DNA from: Thiobacillus sp.
GTDB taxonomy: Bacteria; Pseudomonadota; Gammaproteobacteria; Burkholderiales; Thiobacillaceae
Direction: 5' to 3'
Assembly (NCBI GenBank): GCA_030692355.1
Contig: JAUYCF010000007.1
Location: 1 to 38,221, forward strand
DNA: 38,221 nt
Below, piece by piece: positions 2,993 through 38,221 of this stretch; position 1 is the first letter of the stretch, and every line of letters starts with the position of its first letter. A program made the position numbers and the translations under genes. The notes under the pieces were generated by a model. It had not been told where the DNA came from and ran no database searches. It saw only the letters and a program-made list of their open reading frames with translations.

Positions 2993-4714
2993 ATGGAACG
3001 TGCGATGGCAGAAGCTGCGAACAAGACCGAAAAATTCACCCACAAGCTGCGGGTCGCCTATTTCTCCATGGAGATCGCCCTGGAGAACGATATCCCCACT
3101 TACAGTGGCGGCCTGGGCGTGCTGGCGGGGGACAGCCTGCGCGCCGCGGCAGACATCGGCCTGCCGATGGTGGCGGTCACCCTGGTGTCCCGGGCCGGCT
3201 ATTTCCGCCAGGAAATCGACCCGCAGGGCAGGCAGATCGAACATGCCGACGACTGGGATCCCGCCCGCTACGCGACACGGCTTCAGGCCACCGTGGCGCT
3301 GGAGCTTGAAGATCGCCAGGTGTGGGTGGGGGGCTGGCTTTACGTGCTGAGTTCACTGGTCGACGGTGGCGTGCCCGTCCTGCTGCTGGACACCGACCTG
3401 CCGGTGAACGACCCACGCGACCGTGAAATCACCCATCACCTGTACGGCGGCGATGAGGCCTATCGGATGAAACAGGAAGTGGTGCTGGGCGTGGGGGGCA
3501 TTGCCATGCTTCAGGCCCTGGGCTTCAAGCTCATGGGATATCACATGAACGAGGGCCACTCGGCCTTCCTCACCCTGGCCCTGCTGCAGCGCTACGCCCA
3601 TTCCAGCGAAGGCCTGCGGCCCGGCGAAAGTCCCTACGATCTGCCGCGGGTGCGGGAGCTGTGCACCTTCACCACCCACACGCCGGTGGAGGCCGGCCAC
3701 GACAAATTCGACTACGAACTGGTACGGCGCATCTACGGCGATCTGCTGGATCCGGGCACGGTGAAGCTGCTGGCCGGCGAGGACAGGCTCAACATGACGC
3801 GCCTGGCCCTGAACCTGTCCGAGTACGTCAACGGGGTGGCCAAGCGCCACGCCGAGGTTTCCCGGCTGATGTTCCCGGGTTATGCGGTGCACGCGGTGAC
3901 GAACGGGGTGCATGCCGCCACCTGGACCAGCCCGCCCGTCGCAAAAGTGTACGACCAGCTTGTGCCGGGCTGGTGCCATGAGCCGGAACTGCTCTCCCGC
4001 GCCGACCGTATTCCGGACGGGAAGCTCTGGGCCGCCCACCAGGAAGCCAAGCTGGTGCTGGTCGACAAGGTGCGGGAACTGACCGGGGTGGTGCTGAATC
4101 CGGACCAGCCCATCCTTGGTTTCGCGCGGCGCATGACCGCCTACAAGCGGGCGGACCTGCTGTTTGCCGATCTCGCGCGCCTCAAGGCCATCGCCCGGGA
4201 GCGTCCTTTCCAGATCGTCATGGCCGGCAAGGCCCACCCGAGAGATGCGGCGGGCAAGCAGCTCATCGAAGCGCTGCACGTCCACATGCGGGACCTGTCC
4301 GGGGTGGTCCCCATGGCCTTCCTGCCCGATTACGATATGGCGCTGGCGCTGCTCATGGTGTCCGGCTCCGATGCCTGGATCAACACCCCCTTGCGGCCGC
4401 TGGAGGCTTCCGGCACCAGCGGCATGAAGGCCGCCTTCAACGGCGTGCCCCAGCTCTCGGTGCTGGACGGCTGGTGGGTGGAGGGCTGCCTGGAGGGGGT
4501 GACCGGCTGGGCGGTGGGGGAGGATTCGCCCACCGCCAACGGACACGATGCCATGGCCTTGTACGATAAACTTGAGCACGTGGTCCTGCCGCTCTGGCAT
4601 GACGACCGGCCTGGCTGGATCGCCGTCATGAAGGGCGCCATCAGCAAGAATGCCGCCTACTTCAACAGTCACCGCATGATGCGTCGCTACGCCACAGAGG
4701 CGTACCTGAGATGA
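2993..4714 (+). CDS. glgP: Alpha-glucan (glycogen/maltodextrin) phosphorylase, short form
   Basis: About 573 residues, the compact GT35 form without the long N-terminal regulatory part of animal glycogen phosphorylase. The N-terminus has the family opening VAYFSMEIALENDIPTYSGGLGVLAGD; the substrate region has HMNEGHSAFLTL and TTHTPVEAGHDKF; and the C-terminal half has TAYKRADLLF and the pyridoxal-phosphate motif EASGTSGMKAAFNG, with the cofactor lysine near residue 479. The enzyme releases glucose-1-phosphate from alpha-1,4-glucans using phosphate, in the cytoplasm. The start is uncertain: ATG at 2993 is used, ATG at 3005 (GGA 7 nt upstream) and TTG at 2975 are alternatives. No other glycogen gene is in the window. 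Confidence 0.9.
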   Translation: MERAMAEAANKTEKFTHKLRVAYFSMEIALENDIPTYSGGLGVLAGDSLRAAADIGLPMVAVTLVSRAGYFRQEIDPQGRQIEHADDWDPARYATRLQATVALELEDRQVWVGGWLYVLSSLVDGGVPVLLLDTDLPVNDPRDREITHHLYGGDEAYRMKQEVVLGVGGIAMLQALGFKLMGYHMNEGHSAFLTLALLQRYAHSSEGLRPGESPYDLPRVRELCTFTTHTPVEAGHDKFDYELVRRIYGDLLDPGTVKLLAGEDRLNMTRLALNLSEYVNGVAKRHAEVSRLMFPGYAVHAVTNGVHAATWTSPPVAKVYDQLVPGWCHEPELLSRADRIPDGKLWAAHQEAKLVLVDKVRELTGVVLNPDQPILGFARRMTAYKRADLLFADLARLKAIARERPFQIVMAGKAHPRDAAGKQLIEALHVHMRDLSGVVPMAFLPDYDMALALLMVSGSDAWINTPLRPLEASGTSGMKAAFNGVPQLSVLDGWWVEGCLEGVTGWAVGEDSPTANGHDAMALYDKLEHVVLPLWHDDRPGWIAVMKGAISKNAAYFNSHRMMRRYATEAYLR

Positions 4715-4771
4715 GAACGGCCATGATCGTTTTCCGGGATTGTGAATTTTTTATTCCAATGGACCAATCGC

Positions 4772-4799
4772 TTGAATGTTGTAATTAACTAAATATACT
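4772..4799 (+). promoter_or_regulatory. Candidate sigma-70 promoter for the histone-like gene
   Basis: TTGAAT (4772-4777), a 16-bp spacer, then TATACT (4794-4799) in a conspicuously AT-rich stretch, 36 bp before the ATG at 4836. Four of six and five of six consensus matches. Judged by eye. Confidence 0.5.
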
Positions 4800-4835
4800 G
4801 TTTATTCCGTATAAATCATCTTTGGGAGATTGACC

Positions 4836-5330
4836 ATGGCCGACGACGCTAACAAACCCGCCGAAGCAAAACCCGCAACGCCCACGGCGCGCACCACGAC
4901 GGCTGCCCGTGCCAGGCCGACCGCGCGGGCAAGGGCCGCCGCCACAGCCAGGCCCGCGCCAACCAAGGCTGCGCCTGCGGCAGCAAGGAAAACGGTGGTG
5001 CGTCCTGCCGTGGTCAGGAAGTCGCCCCCGGCAAAGAAGGCGGCGCACGAGCCGGAGCCGTTTGTCGCCAGGGACAAAAAAGCGGGCAAGCCTGCCAAGG
5101 CGAAAAAATCCAAGCTGGTCCGCGACAGCTTCACCATGCCGGATGGGGAGTACGCCCTGATTGCAGCGCTCAAGAAGCGCTGCCTGGATGCGGGGGTGTC
5201 GGTGAAAAAAAGCGAGGTCCTGCGTGCGGCGGTTGCGAATCTGGCGAAACTGAGCGACGCCTCGGTGCTTGCCGCGGTTCGTCGCCTTGAAGTCATCAAG
5301 ACCGGGCGTCCCGCCAAGGGCTCAAAGTAA
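4836..5330 (+). CDS. Histone H1-like Ala/Lys/Pro tail joined to a ribbon-helix-helix-like domain
   Basis: 164 residues. Residues 1-90 are low complexity, dominated by Ala, Lys, Arg and Pro (TARTTTAARARPTARARAAA), like bacterial histone H1-type tails that bind DNA non-specifically. Residues ~95-164 form a compact domain, KLVRDSFTMPDGEYALIAAL...VKKSEVLRAAV...IKTGRPAKG, whose strand-helix-helix order resembles ribbon-helix-helix proteins and occurs in many betaproteobacterial proteins of unknown role. I infer a nucleoid-associated or regulatory DNA-binding protein. The ATG at 4836 has GGGAG 7 nt upstream; a TTG two codons earlier is less likely. It is monocistronic, convergent with the next gene. 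Confidence 0.7.
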   Translation: MADDANKPAEAKPATPTARTTTAARARPTARARAAATARPAPTKAAPAAARKTVVRPAVVRKSPPAKKAAHEPEPFVARDKKAGKPAKAKKSKLVRDSFTMPDGEYALIAALKKRCLDAGVSVKKSEVLRAAVANLAKLSDASVLAAVRRLEVIKTGRPAKGSK

Positions 5331-7974: not shown

Positions 7975-10230
7975 ATGATTGCCCAGGAACTCGAAGTCAC
8001 GCTGCACATGGCCTTCATGGATGCCCGGCAGAAGCGCCACGAATTCATTTCGGTGGAGCATCTGCTGATGGCGATGCTGGACAATCCGTCCGCGGTTGAG
8101 GTGTTGCGCGCCTGTGGCGCCAATATCGAGGCCATGCGCGAACAGCTTGGCGCCTTTATCGAGGAACACACCCCCAAGGTGGTGGGCGAGAGCGAGGTCG
8201 ATACCCAGCCCACGCTCGGTTTCCAGCGCGTGATCCAGCGTGCCATCCTGCATGTGCAGTCGTCCGGCAAGAAGGAAGTGACCGGCGCCAACGTGCTGGT
8301 GGCGGTGTTCGGCGAGAAGGACTCGCACGCGGTGTATTTCCTGACCCAGCAGGGGGTGACGCGGCTCGACATCGTCAACTTCATCTCCCACGGCATCACC
8401 AAGACCCCGCAGGGCGAACCGCTGCCGCGCGCGGATGAGCCTTCCGAAACCAGTTCCGAGGCGCCTGCTGCTTCGCCGCTCGACAGCTTTGCGCAGAACC
8501 TGAACACGCAGGCGCTGGCCGGCAGGATCGACCCGTTGATCGGACGCGACCAGGAACTCGTGCGCGTGATCCAGACCCTGTGCCGCCGGCGCAAGAACAA
8601 TCCCCTGCTTGTGGGCGAGGCCGGCGTGGGCAAGACCGCCATTGCCGAAGGCCTGGCGCGCCGTATTGTTGAAGGCTCGGTGCCCGACATCCTGGCGCAA
8701 AGCACGGTGTATGCGCTGGACATGGGCGCCCTGCTTGCCGGCACCAAATACCGCGGCGATTTCGAGCAGCGCCTGAAGGGCGTGCTGAAGCAGTTGACCG
8801 AAAATCCCAGGGCAATCCTGTTCATCGACGAAATCCACACCCTGGTCGGCGCCGGAGCGGCGTCCGGCGGCACGCTCGATGCGTCCAACCTGCTGAAGCC
8901 GGCGTTGTCGTCGGGCAACCTGCGCTGCATCGGCGCCACCACGTACACCGAATATCGCGGCATTTTCGAGAAAGATCACGCCTTGTCGCGGCGTTTCCAG
9001 AAAATCGACGTGCCCGAGCCCTCGGTTGACGAAACCGTGGCCATCCTGCGCGGCCTGAAATCGCGGTTCGAAGATCATCATGGCGTCAAATACACGGCGG
9101 CCGCGCTGACCACGGCGGCACAACTGTCGGCACGCTATATCAACGACCGCCATCTGCCGGACAAGGCGATCGATGTGATCGACGAGGCGGGCGCAGCACA
9201 GCGCATCCTGCCGAAGTCCAAGCAAAAGCGGACGATCACCCCGCGCGAGATCGAGGACATCATCGCCAGGATTGCGCGGATACCCCCCAAGACCGTGTCG
9301 TCCGACGACAAGAGCTCGCTGAAGACGCTGGACCGCGATCTGAAGGCGGTGGTGTTCGGCCAGGATGTCGCCATCGATGCGCTGGCCACCGCGATCAAGA
9401 TGTCGCGCAGCGGCCTTGGCAATCCGCAGAAACCGATCGGCAACTTCCTGTTCTCCGGCCCCACCGGGGTCGGCAAGACCGAGGTCGCTCGCCAGTTGGC
9501 CTATGTGCTGGGGGTCGAGCTGATCCGCTTCGACATGTCGGAATACATGGAGCGCCATGCGGTGTCGCGGCTGATCGGCGCGCCTCCCGGCTATGTCGGA
9601 TTCGATCAGGGCGGGCTGCTGACGGAGTCTATCAACAAACATCCATATGCTATTGTTTTGCTTGATGAAATAGAAAAAGCCCATCCGGACATTTTCAATG
9701 TGCTGTTGCAGGTGATGGACCACGGCACGCTGACCGATGCGAACGGGCGCAAGGCCGACTTCCGCAACGTGGTGCTCATCATGACGACCAATGCCGGGGC
9801 GGAAATGCTCAACAAGGCGAGCATCGGCTTTTCCAACTCGCGCGAAAGCGGCGACGAAATGGGCGAAATCAAACGCATGTTCACCCCGGAATTCCGTAAC
9901 CGCCTCGACGCGATCATTCCGTTTGCCTCGCTTTCCGAGCCGGTCATCCTGCAGGTGGTGGACAAGTTCCTGATGCAGCTGGAAGAACAGTTGCACGAGA
10001 AGAAGGTCGAGGCGGTATTTACCGATGCGCTGAAGGCCCACCTCGCCAAGCATGGTTTCGACCCGCTGATGGGCGCGCGCCCGATGGCGCGCCTGATCCA
10101 GGACACGATTCGCAAGGCGCTGGCCGACGAGCTGCTGTTCGGCAAGCTGGCGCATGGCGGGCGGGTGACCATCGATATCGACGCCAGCGACAAGGTCTGC
10201 CTGGAGTTCGAGGAGGCGGTTCCAGCGTAA
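7975..10230 (+). CDS. clpA: ATP-dependent Clp protease ATP-binding subunit ClpA
   Basis: 751 residues, full length for ClpA. An N-domain with the ClpN repeat (1-145, [19 protein letters not shown]) is followed by AAA-1 with Walker A GEAGVGKT (214-221) and AAA-2 with Walker A GPTGVGKT (495-502) and Walker B VLLDE (561-565). There is no coiled-coil M-domain, which separates it from ClpB. ClpA unfolds substrates and feeds them to ClpP, whose gene is not in this window. GGAGG lies just upstream, inside clpS. One oddity: codons 552-568 around Walker B use A/T-ending codons (14 of 17) inside an otherwise GC-rich gene. Confidence 0.96.
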
Positions 10231-31767: not shown

Positions 31768-31998
31768 TCAGTCGGACGAAAAAGCCTTCATATAATCGTG
31801 CGCGCTGGCCAGCAACAAGCGCCCTGTCTCGGACAGTCGAGCATGGGGCATCACCGTCGCGTAACCGGACCAGAAGTTCCTCCGATTAGCGTCAAGATGG
31901 TCGGTTGTCTGGGCGGCTTCTTCTTCGCCCAGTTTCCCGCTCTTCAGCAATTCCGCCATCGCCCAGTGCATTCGGGCCGACACCAAGCAGGCCGGCAT
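31768..31998 (-). CDS. Small ORF downstream of the frameshifted peptide gene
   Basis: 76 residues with a protein-like helical pattern (MHWAMAELLKSGKLGEEEAAQ, LSETGRLLLASAHDYMKAF). No signal peptide, cysteine pair or known motif. It lies 21 bp after the end of the peptide gene on the same strand, so it may belong with it. No obvious ribosome binding site precedes ATG 31998. An overlapping ATG in another frame 11 nt upstream gives a poor protein. I do not recognise the family; it could also be a remnant. Confidence 0.4.
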   Translation of the reverse strand: MPACLVSARMHWAMAELLKSGKLGEEEAAQTTDHLDANRRNFWSGYATVMPHARLSETGRLLLASAHDYMKAFSSD

Positions 31999-32019: not shown

Positions 32020-32189
32020 TCAGGCATCGCTTTTTCCGAAAATTGCGCCTTTTCCGATCTTTGCCCCGATCTTCATTCGATCAGTGAGTTTTCCAATTTG
32101 CGCTCCGGTGGGGGCTGGTCGTCGCTGGCCTTGTTCAGCATCTTGAAGCCGAGCAGCTTGCTTTGATCGAGATCGAGTTTCTTGTTCAT
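32020..32189 (-). pseudogene. Frameshifted small basic peptide gene, candidate modified-peptide precursor
   Basis: ATG 32189 has a strong AAAGGGGGA 7 nt upstream. Read straight, it gives 38 residues: MNKKLDLDQSKLLGFKMLNK, then ASDDQPPPERKLENSLIE and a stop (32073). In another frame the sequence continues without interruption as TGAQIGKLTDRMKIGAKIG then KGAIFGKSDA and a stop at 32020. One extra C in the run of five C (32110-32114) would join both into a 56-residue peptide with a leader-like N-terminus and a Gly/Lys-rich basic tail. I read this as one gene broken by a 1-nt deletion, a sequencing error, or less likely a programmed shift. It lies divergent to the ATP-grasp/glycosyltransferase pair. 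Leader plus repetitive tail resembles precursors of ribosomally made modified peptides; no family confirmed. Confidence 0.55.
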
Positions 32190-32277
32190 TGGGATCCCCC
32201 TTTGTTAAGGGTAAATTCTTAATGATGTAAGCTCATCAAAATCACCAATCAATCAGTTGTCCAGCTTCCAATCCCAA

Positions 32278-34185
32278 ATGACCTCGCCCCCAGCCATTTT
32301 TGGGTACCGCGCCGCACTCCGCCAGCCGTCAGCGCTTGCAAGCTTGTTGCTTCCATTGTCCCAGGGCATCGACTATGCGCGCGTGGACGGCTGCCTGGAA
32401 AAAACCTTTGGCGTTGAAATCGAGCACGAGCCGCCGTGTCCCTGGGGTCAGGCCGTAGCACCGGTGTACTCGCTTGCGTGGCGCGTCCTGCTGGTGGCGT
32501 GCGCACTGCAGCAGGCTGCCCGCATACCCGTTTTCGAGCCCGGGCGCGTGCTGAAGATCGGGCGCGATGCCAAAAATGCATCGCTTTTCCGGGTCATGGT
32601 CGCCGTACCTTTGATCGATCATTATCCCCGCCAGAAGTTGATGGTGCTGTTTAACGCCGCCACCCAGGTGGCCAATTGGGCGACAGCACACCATGCCAAC
32701 CCGCCGAGCCCGGCAGCCCTGTATCGCTATCTGCAGGACAAAGTCATTCCGAGCCTGCGGTCCATCATGCCGGCTGGCGTTTCCACGGTCCCCATTCTTG
32801 ACGGTGCCAATCGAAACGACATTCCTTTTCGCCATCTGGGCGCGAGCGTGTTCCAGTTGGGCTGGGGGGCGCGTTCGCACTTGATGGACAGGAGCGCCGT
32901 CGATGCCGATTCGGCTATCGGCGCAAAGCTCACCCAAAACAAGCACTGGACCGCACGGCTCATCCGCACGGCCGGGTTGCCGGCACCCGAGCATCACCTG
33001 GTACGCACCCTCGCGGAAGCCGAACACGCGGCAACAGAAATGGGCTGGCCACTCGTCGTCAAGCCGGCCGACCGGGACCGTAGCGAAGGGGTGACCATCG
33101 GTATCAAGACCCTCGAGAAGCTGCGAGAAGGCTTCAACGCGGCATCTGCGTTGTCCGGCCGTATCTTGGTCGAAAGAGAGGTTCCCGGAATCTGCTACCG
33201 GTTGCTGATTGCGAACGGCAGGCTGCTCTATGTGCTTTTCCGCAAGCCCAAGGCGATCACGGGCAACGGACGACACACCCTCTCCGAGTTGCTTCAGCTT
33301 GAAGAAGCCAACACCCTGAGCAAACCGCCCTGGCGTCGCGGCAAGGTGATCAAAATGGATGCGCTGACGCTGGCCGCCGTCGTCACCCAGGGACTGGAGC
33401 CCGACTCCATACCAGATGCCGGCCAACAAGTCGCGCTACGCGACATTGAATCGTCAGAATGGGGCGGCGATTTCGGCGATGCCACTGCGCAGGTGCATCC
33501 AGACAACATTGATATCGCCGTTCGCGCTGCCAGGCTCTTCGGGCTCCGCAATGCAGGCATCGATATCATTTCAGCAGATATCGGCCGGCCATGGCACGAA
33601 AACGGGGCCATCATCAACGAGGTGAACTACGCGCCGTATTTCGTCAACCCGATCGCCAAGGCAAAACTGCCTGATTTCTTTGACGGGTTCATGGTGGGTG
33701 ATGGCCGGATACCGATAATTGCCTATGTGGGTGGCGAAGCGGCATGGCAGCAAGGCGCTTCCAGGCAGTTGGCGCTACGGGACACGGGCGTCAATTGCTA
33801 CCTGACGAATCATGTGCAAACGCTGAACGGGCGACAGGAATTGATGCCTTTGCCACAGCCAGGACTGTTTCAGCATGCACTGGCCTTGTTGATGAACCGG
33901 GACGTCGAAGCGCTGATTCTGGTGATCCAAACCGACGAACTTCTGTACGCCGGACTTCCGGTGGATCGGATCGACGAAATTCACCCATGTACCGGGGATA
34001 TCGCGGCAGGCGATGCTGACACAAAGGTTTCGGGTACGGCATTGACGACAGCGATGCTGGATTTGCTGCGGCTCTACGAAAACCAGGAGGTCCACTCAGC
34101 AGTTCAACCGATGGGTGAGCGCGTGGGTTGTGTCGACCAACCCGAGCGCCCGTTCACCACAGACGATCCAGTGCGACTGCCATGA
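32278..34185 (+). CDS. Cyanophycin-synthetase-like ATP-grasp ligase with truncated, inactive-looking Mur-ligase remnant
   Basis: 635 residues from ATG 32278; an in-frame TTG at 32257 is possible, neither has a clear ribosome binding site. Residues 1-200 are a CphA-like N-terminal region ending FRHLGASVFQLGWGARSHLM. Residues ~220-470 are the ATP-grasp fold: NKHWTARLIRTAGLPAPEHH, WPLVVKPADRDRSEGVTIGI, ILVEREVPGICYRLLIANGR, GNGRHTLSELL, GIDIISADIGRPW, and the Mg-binding IINEVNYAPYF. Residues ~476-600 follow the start of the CphA Mur-ligase domain (GRIPIIAYVGG..., AGLPVDRIDEI), but its P-loop GTNGKTTT is gone and the domain stops at about 150 residues instead of about 400. CphA polymerises Asp and Arg; this protein should catalyse only an ATP-grasp amide ligation, substrate unknown. 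It overlaps the glycosyltransferase by four bases. Confidence 0.82.
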   Translation: MTSPPAIFGYRAALRQPSALASLLLPLSQGIDYARVDGCLEKTFGVEIEHEPPCPWGQAVAPVYSLAWRVLLVACALQQAARIPVFEPGRVLKIGRDAKNASLFRVMVAVPLIDHYPRQKLMVLFNAATQVANWATAHHANPPSPAALYRYLQDKVIPSLRSIMPAGVSTVPILDGANRNDIPFRHLGASVFQLGWGARSHLMDRSAVDADSAIGAKLTQNKHWTARLIRTAGLPAPEHHLVRTLAEAEHAATEMGWPLVVKPADRDRSEGVTIGIKTLEKLREGFNAASALSGRILVEREVPGICYRLLIANGRLLYVLFRKPKAITGNGRHTLSELLQLEEANTLSKPPWRRGKVIKMDALTLAAVVTQGLEPDSIPDAGQQVALRDIESSEWGGDFGDATAQVHPDNIDIAVRAARLFGLRNAGIDIISADIGRPWHENGAIINEVNYAPYFVNPIAKAKLPDFFDGFMVGDGRIPIIAYVGGEAAWQQGASRQLALRDTGVNCYLTNHVQTLNGRQELMPLPQPGLFQHALALLMNRDVEALILVIQTDELLYAGLPVDRIDEIHPCTGDIAAGDADTKVSGTALTTAMLDLLRLYENQEVHSAVQPMGERVGCVDQPERPFTTDDPVRLP

Positions 34186-35360
34186 AAGTGCTGCTGGTAT
34201 GGGAACTCGGCGGCCAGCTCGGTCACTTTGGAACCTTGCTGCCCATTGCGGATGCATTGGCGGCCGATGGCCATGAAGTCGCATTCGCACTCAGGGACCT
34301 GAGCCATGCCCATCCCCTGATCGGCGAGCGGTATCCGTATTTCCAGGCGCCGCTTCGAATCGATGCAAAACAAGCCGCACGCCGCTACGATTCCTTTGCC
34401 GATATTCTGCTCCATGCCGGTTTCGATCATCCGGACACCCTGAGCGGGCTGGTTTCGGCCTGGCGTGCTCTCTATGCGCAACTGCAACCCGATTGGGTCA
34501 TTTACGACCACGCCCCGGTTGCCTTGTTTGCCGCATGTGGACTGCCCTTCAAGAAAACATGCGTGAGTACCGGATTTTCGATCCCGCCGGGCGGCGAGGC
34601 TTTCCCGCGCTTTCGCCATTGGCAGCCAGACACCGAAAGCGATCAGGCACACCGCCGGCACAGCCATCAGTTGGCCATGGCCAATGGCAACCTGGCGGCC
34701 CAGCGACTGGGAATGCCCGCACTGGAATATCTGCCGGAAATCTTCGGGCAAGCGGCGCAGAAACTCACCACCTTGCCACCATTGGACCACTATCCATCAC
34801 GCGCGGCCGGTGAATACATCGGCCCCATCGGCGGCCTCGGACAAGGCAAATCCTTTGGAAAGGCAGACCATGAGCGCTGGATATTCTGCTACCTCTGGGC
34901 GCGTCATCGCGGCAGCCTTGATCTACTCAAAGCACTAGCCGATGTGCCGGATTTCAAAACCCTTGCCGTCGTCCCCGACCTCCCCGGCCACCTCCCCGCC
35001 CAACAACACTACAAGAACCTGACGATCACCCGTCAGCCGATTGACCTCAACACCCTGTCGCGCTGGGCAGAGTTGATCGTATGCAATGCCAACCACGGCA
35101 CCCTTGCTCTGGCGTCCAGCCAGGGCGTCCCTTCGGCAAATTCACCCGTCACCCTGGAACAAACCATGCTGGCCAAAAGAATCGAAGCGGCCAATGCCGG
35201 CATCACGCTTGCAAGAGGGGCAACCCCCAGCGACGTGGCTCGACAAATAGCCGACGCCATCAGCCAGCAAACCGGCAAGGCAGGCGCACGCCGCATCCAG
35301 GCCACGCACCAAACTTCGGTATTTAAAAGTCAGGACGCATTGTTGGCGGCACTCCTATAA
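34182..35360 (+). CDS. GT-B glycosyltransferase (UGT/MGT-like)
   Basis: 392 residues from ATG 34182 (ATGA overlap with the ligase stop); an upstream GTG in frame lies inside the ligase gene. The N-terminal domain opens MKVLLVWELGGQLGHFGTLL...ALAADGHEVAFALRD, the UGT fold with a glycine-rich loop. The C-terminal donor domain has NANHGTLALASSQGVPSANS...EQTMLAKRIEAANAGI, corresponding to the HGGxGT/GVP/DQ motif of the family, although HGG has become NHG. Such enzymes transfer sugars to small molecules, lipids or peptides. Coupling to the ligase suggests they act in one pathway. No signal peptide; cytoplasmic. Confidence 0.8.
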   Translation: MKVLLVWELGGQLGHFGTLLPIADALAADGHEVAFALRDLSHAHPLIGERYPYFQAPLRIDAKQAARRYDSFADILLHAGFDHPDTLSGLVSAWRALYAQLQPDWVIYDHAPVALFAACGLPFKKTCVSTGFSIPPGGEAFPRFRHWQPDTESDQAHRRHSHQLAMANGNLAAQRLGMPALEYLPEIFGQAAQKLTTLPPLDHYPSRAAGEYIGPIGGLGQGKSFGKADHERWIFCYLWARHRGSLDLLKALADVPDFKTLAVVPDLPGHLPAQQHYKNLTITRQPIDLNTLSRWAELIVCNANHGTLALASSQGVPSANSPVTLEQTMLAKRIEAANAGITLARGATPSDVARQIADAISQQTGKAGARRIQATHQTSVFKSQDALLAALL

Positions 35361-35861
35361 CGCCGGGATAAATCCGCCGACGCGATTTGGCTCAAGCGAG
35401 CCCCGCGCAACACTTTCAACGCATCATTTACCCCATTCGCCGCGCAGTGAGAAATATAATTTACTTATAAAACAAGTGGTTGCCTCAAACTACAACTAAA
35501 GTTGTATAGACAAACCCAAAGCCCTCCCCGCACAGTCCGAAAAGGCCCGGGCGCAACACTCGGGGATCAAAAAAACAGGGGGAGGAATCATGTATCGCAC
35601 GCACATTCAGTGCGCGGACGTAGGGCGGGCGGCTTAGCCGAAACCAGCGCCTTTGTCTGCTGCAGGCAGCGCCGGGCAGGGCGCGACGCGTGGCGATCGG
35701 ACGGGCGCATTGCCGGAGATGAAGCTGCAATGGCGATCCGGTGTGCACCTGAAATCGAGTGGCCCCACTTTTTTGAAAACCATGGTCTGTCCACGCGTGC
35801 GCATTCTGCCCGGTGGCACCACTCAGAGAAATGTGGTTTTGCAAGACTTGACCCCGTTGGC
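35361..35861. other. Non-coding/degraded stretch upstream of the lipase remnant
   Basis: About 500 bp. The first 140 bp are AT-rich, including a perfect TATAAT (35455-35460) without a good -35, and TATAAA (35466-35471). The rest is GC-rich and open in several frames, but none looks like a real protein. It may be eroded coding DNA of a lost lipase copy or an old insertion. No terminal repeats found. Confidence 0.4.
35492..35505. promoter_or_regulatory. Perfect 14-bp palindrome, possible operator
   Basis: ACAACT-AA-AGTTGT, a perfect inverted repeat 32 bp downstream of the TATAAT. Short and unproven; chance occurrence possible. Confidence 0.25.
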
Positions 35862-35945
35862 GACATGTTCGCCAACGCCGATGAGAGCAAAGCCTTCATG
35901 GTCGGCGGCATCGGCGATGACAACGAACGGAGGCTGGCGGCATGA
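35862..35945 (+). pseudogene. Remnant of a second RTX-lipase gene
   Basis: 55 nt (35862-35916) repeat the lipase gene at 37754-37808 with one mismatch, giving MFANADESKAFMVGGIG against MFAYADESKAFMVGGIG. After this the similarity ends abruptly (DDNERRLAA, stop), just where the RTX repeats would start. The frame is open back to 35502 but upstream codons do not resemble the lipase. Its TGA overlaps the lipoprotein ATG (ATGA), and its last codons supply the GGAGG ribosome binding site of that gene. This is the trace of a recombined or decayed toxin copy. Confidence 0.75.
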
Positions 35946-36571: not shown

Positions 36572-38221
36572 ATGGCAACCGTATTCGAATACATGCAGCT
36601 TGCAACACGCGTCTACGCCGCATCAGAGCGCAACGTGATCGATGTTCCCGCAGGCTGGCGTCAGGTCGACTGGCAACCTGATCGCTACACGGGATTCTCT
36701 GCTGGCGTGTACATGAATGATGCGACCAATGAGATGATCATTTCCTACACCGGCACCAACAGCATGGTTGCCGATCCGCTCAGCTGGACGGCAGGGCTGG
36801 GTTTGCCAGCGCCACAGATATACGACGCCATGGCTTATTACTTTGCGTTCCGTGAAGCATATCCCACAGCCAACATCACTTTCACCGGACACTCGCTTGG
36901 AGGCGGTTTGGCTTCGCTCATGGCCGTGATGTTTGACAAGCAGGCGACCGTCTTCGATCAAGCACCCTTCCAGCCCGCTGCGGTAAACCCCGCGCTGATG
37001 CCTTCCTATGCTGCAGCCATGGCGGCGGCAGGGTACGTGGATGAGGCTTTGGTTTTATTTATCGCATCCGCAGGATTGCTTGCGCTCACCCGTGAATCAA
37101 ACGTAACGCATTACTACCTTGAAGGCGAAGTGCTCGCCCCGATCCGAGTCTCGGCCAACACACTGGTTGGAAACGATAATCCGATTGCGCTGGGAGACTC
37201 GACAGCGGACTTGATTGATCGGCATTCAATGGCCTTGATGACGGCCTTGTGGTACTCGCCTGATTTTTTAGCTGTTGCCCGGAAGATGCCGGACTTGATC
37301 ACGCAGCTCCTGGATACCAACCTGTTTGCTACGGATTCACGCAACCCAGACAAAAATGATCTGTTGCGCAGGCTGCTACGCCATCAACTTGGCGTAACGG
37401 GCGATGTGCCAGCGAATGGAATGCTTGATCGTTTTGTGGCGGACATGAATAAAGTCGCCCAGGATGGCGGCTTCAGCCTCACCAATCAGCACATCACCAA
37501 TACCCTCGTGGCCTTCGCCATGCAGATGTACTACGAGAACCCCGAAGCCGCCGTTGCGGACAAGACGCTGTTCGCCAGCGTCACCGGCGGCATCCGCTTC
37601 GATCGCACCGACGTGGCGGCAACACTCGCGGATGCCAAGGGCTGGCAGATGTATTTCCAGAACTACCTCAACACCCTCACCCTGGAAGAACACCGCATCG
37701 TCCTGCAACTCTTGCCTGCCGCCACCGACTGGTTCATCCAGGCCGGCAGCCTCGACATGTTCGCCTACGCCGATGAGAGCAAAGCCTTCATGGTCGGCGG
37801 CATCGGCGCCGACTGGATGATGGGTGGCACTCAAGCCGATCTCCTGCTGGGCAACGCAGGAGACGACCACCTGGGGGGCGGCAAAGGCAACGACACCTTG
37901 ATCGGCGGCTCGGGTTTCGATACCTACATCATCAACGCAGGCGACGGCCACGACACCCTCCTCGACAGCGATGGCTTGGGCGTGATCAACCTGGGCGGCC
38001 TCCTGGCCAAGGGTGGCGCCACGGCAGGGCTGGATCCGGCGAAGTGGCGGCAAAGCGACAACGTCTGGCAAGACCAGCAGAACGGCCTGACTTATCTGTT
38101 GGTCATGCAGGGCGATGGCAGCCAAACGCTGATGATTACCGGCCTGGATGGCAGCACGGTCGAGGTGCGGGGCTGGAGCGAGGGCGAGTTGGGCATCGTC
38201 CTCGGCGCCGGGGCGCAACAA
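36572..38221 (+). CDS. RTX-repeat lipase, candidate secreted toxin (3' end outside window)
   Basis: 550 codons, open to the right edge. GGAG lies 7 nt before ATG 36572. Residues 1-240 are a class-3-like lipase: MIISYTGTN (oxyanion region), FTGHSLGGGLASL with nucleophile Ser108, and LIDRHSMAL with candidate His218. The acid residue is not certain. Residues 240-410 are helical. From about 415 come RTX calcium-binding repeats (LLLGNAGDDHLGGGKGNDTL, IGGSGFDTYIINAGDG), followed by a beta-rich tail. No N-terminal signal peptide, as expected for type I secretion, whose genes are not seen here. Part of the sequence just before the RTX block recurs at 35862. Substrate (lipid or phospholipid) unknown. 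Confidence 0.85.
   Translation, partial: MATVFEYMQLATRVYAASERNVIDVPAGWRQVDWQPDRYTGFSAGVYMNDATNEMIISYTGTNSMVADPLSWTAGLGLPAPQIYDAMAYYFAFREAYPTANITFTGHSLGGGLASLMAVMFDKQATVFDQAPFQPAAVNPALMPSYAAAMAAAGYVDEALVLFIASAGLLALTRESNVTHYYLEGEVLAPIRVSANTLVGNDNPIALGDSTADLIDRHSMALMTALWYSPDFLAVARKMPDLITQLLDTNLFATDSRNPDKNDLLRRLLRHQLGVTGDVPANGMLDRFVADMNKVAQDGGFSLTNQHITNTLVAFAMQMYYENPEAAVADKTLFASVTGGIRFDRTDVAATLADAKGWQMYFQNYLNTLTLEEHRIVLQLLPAATDWFIQAGSLDMFAYADESKAFMVGGIGADWMMGGTQADLLLGNAGDDHLGGGKGNDTLIGGSGFDTYIINAGDGHDTLLDSDGLGVINLGGLLAKGGATAGLDPAKWRQSDNVWQDQQNGLTYLLVMQGDGSQTLMITGLDGSTVEVRGWSEGELGIVLGAGAQQ
37754..37808 (+). repeat. Intact copy of the 55-nt sequence shared with the lipase remnant
   Basis: Direct repeat of 35862-35916 with one mismatch, 1.9 kb apart. 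It encodes the segment immediately before the RTX block and marks a likely recombination site. Confidence 0.8.

Follow-up and report, generated by a model that had tools for sequence, protein, structure and literature searches.

The stretch of DNA analyzed here (hereafter the window) comprises 38,221 nucleotides of contig JAUYCF010000007.1 of a Thiobacillus sp. (assembly GCA_030692355.1), and carries on its minus strand, at 32020..32189, a small gene for a putative precursor of a ribosomally synthesized and post-translationally modified peptide (RiPP). This gene is split over two reading frames, and probably represents the decayed precursor gene of a RiPP-like cassette, where genes encoding an aKG-HExxH-type peptide hydroxylase and an ATP-grasp ligase accompany that of the precursor. 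The three parts occur together in genome after genome, and the precursor is in neither Pfam nor NCBIfam. The window shows one way in which such a locus may die, with the precursor out of frame, the hydroxylase deleted, and the ligase left.

The Split Precursor Gene and Its Close Relatives

As read from the sequence, the gene starts with an ATG at 32189-32187 (-), which opens an ORF (open reading frame) of 38 residues beginning with MNKKLDLDQSKLLGFKMLNKASDD and ending at a stop codon at 32075-32073. The leader half in frame with this ATG (32115..32189, minus strand) encodes MNKKLDLDQSKLLGFKMLNKASDDQ. It is followed on the same strand by a run of five C (32110..32114), where the two frames part, and by the core half (32020..32109), whose frame runs from approximately 32109 to a stop at 32022-32020 and carries GAQIGK and KIGAKIGKGAIFGK. 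A preliminary description made from the DNA alone had proposed that a single-base frameshift at this run hides a leader/core peptide of 56 residues, and this count fits the joined halves (25 + 2 + 29).

The two-frame layout is confirmed by the sequence and by a profile built from an alignment of 21 intact precursor peptides (referred to as A3), which each half matches separately, the leader half at profile positions 2-26 (E = 9.1e-10) and the core half at positions 18-60 (32148-32026, E = 2.5e-8), the latter match beginning somewhat 5' of the C run. Over the whole genome of the window, the A3 profile gave just two matches at E <=0.1, i.e., the two precursor halves in their different frames. 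A chance reading between two genes, which the short and broken ORF might bring to mind, is refuted by these two separate matches (E 9e-10 and 2.5e-8) together with the close intact homologs described below, and we give it practically no weight.

The sequence AGGGGG, six bases 5' of the ATG, is a candidate ribosome binding site; it was previously called strong, but its match to AGGAGG is moderate. The ATG of the second frame overlaps the stop codon of the 38-residue ORF (ATGA). Several relatives (P0125, P0126, P0127, and P0131) have DRM at the corresponding position, so that an ordinary Met codon inside the gene seems a better reading of this ATG than a second start. Upstream, an 88-bp A+T-rich gap (32190..32277; G+C 0.398 vs. 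0.622 for the window) separates the precursor gene from the divergent ATP-grasp gene, and presumably holds the promoters of both.

Searching 5.8 billion proteins with the open frame of the window, we found 12 proteins, of which one is that of the window itself (P0121, present on three contigs) and 11 are foreign. The preliminary description had named the absence of any similar peptide from relatives as the outcome that would speak against it; we found such peptides, with the tail in one frame in nine of these 11 foreign relatives, which are intact and 57-58 residues long. M1-L5, S10, L12-K16, L18, and K20 are identical in the window peptide and all 11 aligned relatives, and the relatives' core to be compared with the window tail reads IGAKIGK..DRxKIGAKIGKG. 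P0128 ends early, with 36 residues. P0122 (35 residues), a near-identical peptide from another assembly, agrees with the window up to the C run; past this point its residues are those of the third frame of the window DNA. The C run thus seems, to judge from the proteins, to have another length there.

Probable Decay of the Window Copy

Downstream of the precursor gene, at 31768..31998 on the minus strand, lies the C-terminal remnant of an aKG-HExxH peptide hydroxylase gene (tblastn match 31992-31771, 52% to locus L022 of Methylomicrobium sp. RS1, E = 1.8e-19), which the preliminary description had not remarked. The matched segment consists of the last 71-74 codons. Against the final 70-74 residues of seven full-length relatives (P0140, P0155, P0141, P0143, P0154, P0148, and P0152; 331-349 aa), its identity is 77-89%. 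Approximately 257 of 331 codons, the HExxH motif among them, are thus missing from the N-terminal side. The genome of the window, which is 99.99% complete, has no match to TIGR04267, the family of these hydroxylases, at E <=1, the remnant itself being too partial to register. Both the remnant and the relative P0152 begin with MPAC, and this shared start, seen in a comparison of proteins, suggests that a deletion may have joined the spacer just before the gene to approximately codon 258.

A dead gene is the best reading of the frameshift, the differing form in P0122, and the hydroxylase deletion taken together. The preliminary idea of a merely hidden, otherwise sound gene does not hold, given a downstream hydroxylase reduced to its last fifth and P0122 out of frame in another way. 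On the same two grounds, real decay is more probable than an error in base calling. A sequencing or assembly error, with the gene intact in the cell, would fit the short homopolymer at the frame break, the apparent difference in run length from P0122, and the well-conserved tail frame; it seems unlikely, as no base-calling slip removes approximately 257 of 331 hydroxylase codons, the genome shows no second copy, and neither of the forms seen (P0121 and P0122) keeps the frame, the 38-residue form being present on three contigs. Programmed frameshifting that unites the halves at the C run is far less credible still. C runs can slip, and the tail has not accumulated stops, but in nine of the 11 foreign relatives a single frame covers the whole peptide, so that no shift is conserved; moreover, the stretch is not a canonical slippery heptamer, the frame of P0122 differs, and the partner hydroxylase is gone.

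The Precursor Family in Other Genomes

We gathered 77 loci from genome contigs by means of the ATP-grasp relatives of the window enzyme, and searched them with a leader profile seeded from local-alignment matches (profile matches with E >0.5 were inspected and left out as noise). This profile found a precursor in 12 of the 77 loci, besides the window, and in none of the loci L003-L021; the 12 include loci labeled Methylomicrobium, Crenothrix, Quisquiliibacterium, Ramlibacter, and a Solemya symbiont. A loose all-frame motif scan (for G-x-K and LLGFK) had yielded mostly noise, with 5 loci in a stricter count, and was replaced by local alignment and the profile.

By comparison, the precursors have 36-91 residues and consist of a leader such as xxxLDxSKLxGFK, and a core of one to several [GAS]xK[IVL]G units. 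Typical family members carry an LDxSKLxGFK-like leader and then units such as GAKIGKVP, GSKIGKVP, or GAKVGSKIG. In the A3 alignment (21 sequences), L12, G14, and G33 are invariant and D8, F15, and K16 nearly so, while the cores differ in length and in their number of repeats. In repeat after repeat, a small residue (A, S, G, T, or P) directly precedes the Lys, and the C-termini are not conserved.

Independent sets of genomes were searched with the A3 profile as well. Among 369 genomes of the window's class, five matched at E <=0.01, and among 117 genomes of its family, 15 matched at E <=0.1, the window's genome being included in both counts. Nine weak matches in the family set (E 0.005-0.093, in frames of 193-894 aa, without an HExxH match) were dropped as chance, and so was G342 (L125), where the match lies inside an unrelated long frame. 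The cassette is found in the window's family, in proteobacteria outside it, and in a single locus labeled as a cyanobacterium (L072).

When seven intact precursors were compared with Pfam and NCBIfam, no family scored over its cut-off, and the few weak matches were to unrelated proteins. Our literature searches, whose coverage left out most subscription journals, returned no description of the precursor or its motifs, nor of any pairing of such an ATP-grasp gene with an aKG-HExxH gene. The earlier suggestion of an undescribed leader/core precursor thus stands for the databases and literature searched, and the precursor family and the enzyme combination appear new; the enzyme families themselves are known.

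Two further observations concern the variety of precursor genes. At L118:6271-7304 (-), two tandem precursor genes precede one hydroxylase gene. In addition, L044 (~4600-5010, minus strand) and L069 (~8700-9400, minus strand), which lack the usual leader, have another precursor type (M...LAPYG...KVGGGKG) ahead of the HExxH gene. These are two of four loci that have an HExxH gene without a leader match; among the other two, L041 has LAPYG with a less clear tail, and for L040 see below.

The Hydroxylase Partner

A conserved gene of ~330 aa lies directly downstream of the precursor gene, on the same strand, in all 12 precursor loci. It belongs to TIGR04267, the aKG-HExxH-type peptide beta-hydroxylases of NCBIfam, with 102.5, 99.1, and 77.4 bits in L022, L027, and L040 respectively (cut-off 40). 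A gene of the same type is directly downstream in nine of ten further places fetched from the independent genomes, the tenth being L125 (see above). HExxH genes are present in 16 of the 77 ATP-grasp loci, and all 12 precursor loci are among these 16. TIGR04267 also exceeds its cut-off in five of the 117 family genomes, and the same five, the window's genome apart, have the peptide match at E <=2.1e-5. Our count of seven strong HExxH places leaves out G333 (40.7 bits) and G095 (28.7 bits), neither of which matches the HExxH subfamily found here, and in G182 the contig begins too close to judge whether a leader is present.

For four of the nine intact close relatives of the window peptide, the matches listed include a full-length hydroxylase on a contig of equal size (14921, 2323, 3341, and 3645 bases), so precursor and hydroxylase are presumably together there. 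On the 2323-base contig, the hydroxylase P0152 has HESGY in place of HESGH; its sequence suggests that this is perhaps another failing copy, in which an iron ligand may be lost. Near the HExxH and ATP-grasp genes of two loci is a 2OG-Fe(II) oxygenase (PF13640) gene (L026:2985-3683 and L040:7099-7782).

Several observations weigh against reading the window as a decayed copy of such a cassette. Its ATP-grasp gene remains uninterrupted, as would not be required of a locus that is fully dead, and the difference in the C run could partly be an assembly slip. In the stretches examined, 61 of the 77 ATP-grasp loci have no HExxH gene, so that cassettes of this type account for a minority of the ATP-grasp relatives. 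L040 has no precursor-like peptide recognizable by eye despite its HExxH and ATP-grasp genes, and G401 has no leader match. Five of the intact close relatives (P0123, P0124, P0127, P0130, and P0131) have no hydroxylase on a contig of equal size among the best 120 of 829 matches listed. Beyond the two enzymes, no gene family is common to most precursor loci.

The ATP-Grasp Ligase

The divergent ATP-grasp gene of the window (32278..34185, plus strand) is an open frame encoding a CphA2-like ligase of 635 aa. It matches the cyanophycin synthetase models of NCBIfam with 232.5 of 877 and 201.6 of 850 bits, below the cut-offs, and over residues 171-572 only. K222, K262, D429, E448, and N450, which we take to be residues of the ATP-grasp catalytic core, are invariant in 35 sequences and are kept in the alignment to 7wac. 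A close ortholog was sought in 60 relatives, 19 of which have a match, none of those listed exceeding 37% identity.

The preliminary description had expected related precursors next to CphA-like ATP-grasp genes and had cast the ATP-grasp protein as the modifying enzyme. Such neighbors were found in the loci of relatives, and a ligase is indeed nearby, but it is the aKG-HExxH hydroxylase that is the constant partner, whereas the ligase is of two types, being either CphA2-like, as in the window, or a short protein with a RimK fold. Neither the comparison of the short with the long ligase nor that of the short ligase with PDB chains gave a sequence match, and the relation is seen by fold only. 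In the fold ranking of the short ligase, RimK comes first, and RimK and LysX score above PsnB; families absent from the ranking lists are not thereby ruled out. The ATP-grasp gene is divergent from the precursor cassette in 10 of 21 cases, convergent in seven, and in tandem in four.

At L121:4595-6414 (-), the CphA-like gene that accompanies the precursor is itself split over two open frames, and is perhaps another decaying or misassembled copy. Some ATP-grasp relatives (P0051, P0052, P0054, P0055, and others) are ~1100 aa long and have AMP-binding (PF00501) domains.

Proposed Function of Intact Cassettes and Comparison with Known Systems

We tentatively suggest, with somewhat less than even confidence, that intact cassettes represent a new RiPP class, in which an ATP-grasp ligase of cyanophycin-synthetase or RimK/LysX type extends hydroxylated [GA]xK[IVL]G repeats at lysines or at the chain end, so that the product bears added amino acids, and whose short precursors are easily missed by gene callers. 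The leader would recruit the modifying enzymes; the hydroxylase would oxidize residues within the repeats; and the ligase, using ATP, would attach an amino acid or some other carboxylate to the peptide, for which the repeated lysines or the C-terminus are the most plausible sites. The lack of conservation at the precursor C-termini speaks against C-terminal tailoring. Among the kin of these ligases, CphA, RimK, and LysX couple amino acids to the carboxylates of peptides or proteins. If the ligase does add amino acids to a ribosomal peptide, cyanophycin-type or RimK-type chemistry would be linked with RiPPs. From the window itself no such product is expected, because its precursor is frameshifted and its hydroxylase reduced to 71-74 codons.

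As far as the covered parts of the literature go, aKG-HExxH enzymes hydroxylate His, Asp, Phe, Gln, and Pro (PMC13060819), and the described pathways (ChlBH, BpmH, PflC/PosC, and PesO) resemble the present cassette in having a TIGR04267 enzyme beside a short leader-bearing precursor (PMC12636437, PMC13060819). In the same parts, the partners described are radical SAM, MNIO, nitroreductase, GNAT, or Asn-synthetase-like proteins, whereas here we found an ATP-grasp ligase and a [GA]xK[IVL]G core. PosC/PflC also cleave the chain oxidatively, and small residues (Ala, Gly) are reported to favor this reaction in the part of the paper covered (PMC12636437). A similar cleavage of the repeats at the small residues beside Lys, with the ligase acting on the fragments, would agree with the recurrence of such residues (A, S, G, T, or P) before Lys in the precursors. 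We consider this doubtful, as the precursors lack a motif such as ARMD, and the other family members, as far as their descriptions were covered, only hydroxylate.

Graspetides of the corallotide and microviridin type likewise have an ATP-grasp gene beside the precursor gene, and corallotide adds an oxygenase acting on Lys, according to the part of the source covered (PMC13097080). In a cassette of this kind, the ATP-grasp enzyme would link core Lys/Ser/Thr to core Asp/Glu through lactams or lactones, which the hydroxylase would decorate, as in corallotide. The nine intact cores closest to the window do have one to three Asp/Glu, the donors that graspetides need. However, when core borders are drawn by a crude rule, neither Asp nor Glu is present in 14 of 31 cores, and the other 17 have one or two (15 cores) or three (two cores), so a graspetide-like lactam is unlikely as the general case, though conceivable in the window's own clade. 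In addition, RimK and LysX rank above PsnB for the short ligase, the long ligase is CphA-like, and the corallotide oxygenase belongs to PF13640, while here an HExxH enzyme takes its place. We regard a graspetide as rather improbable.

For the ligases themselves, the nearest known systems are CphA2/CphA1, RimK/LysX/ArgX, and possibly Pgm1. The window enzyme has ~23% identity to the cyanophycin synthetases CphA2/CphA1, and its 635 aa have no NCBIfam match past residue 572; unlike CphA2/CphA1, ligases of its type in the precursor loci go with a ribosomal precursor and a hydroxylase. The short ligase has no significant sequence match in Pfam, NCBIfam, or PDB that would place it with the amino-acid ligases RimK/LysX/ArgX. 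The pheganomycin ligase Pgm1, likened here by description only, is an ATP-grasp enzyme by which non-proteinogenic amino acids are coupled to ribosomal peptides (PMC13417212).

Neighboring Genes in the Window

Overlapping the stop codon of the ATP-grasp gene (ATGA) is a gene resembling macrolide-type glycosyltransferases (34182..35360, plus strand; weak TIGR04516/TIGR01426 matches). It was considered as a member of the cassette and rejected, since the compared loci contain no homolog at E 1e-3 besides the window's own. Further along, DESKAFMVGGIG is present in a short ORF at 35502-35945 (+) and again in the long lipase-like gene downstream of it at 36572-38221 (+), as if a portion of this long gene had been duplicated.
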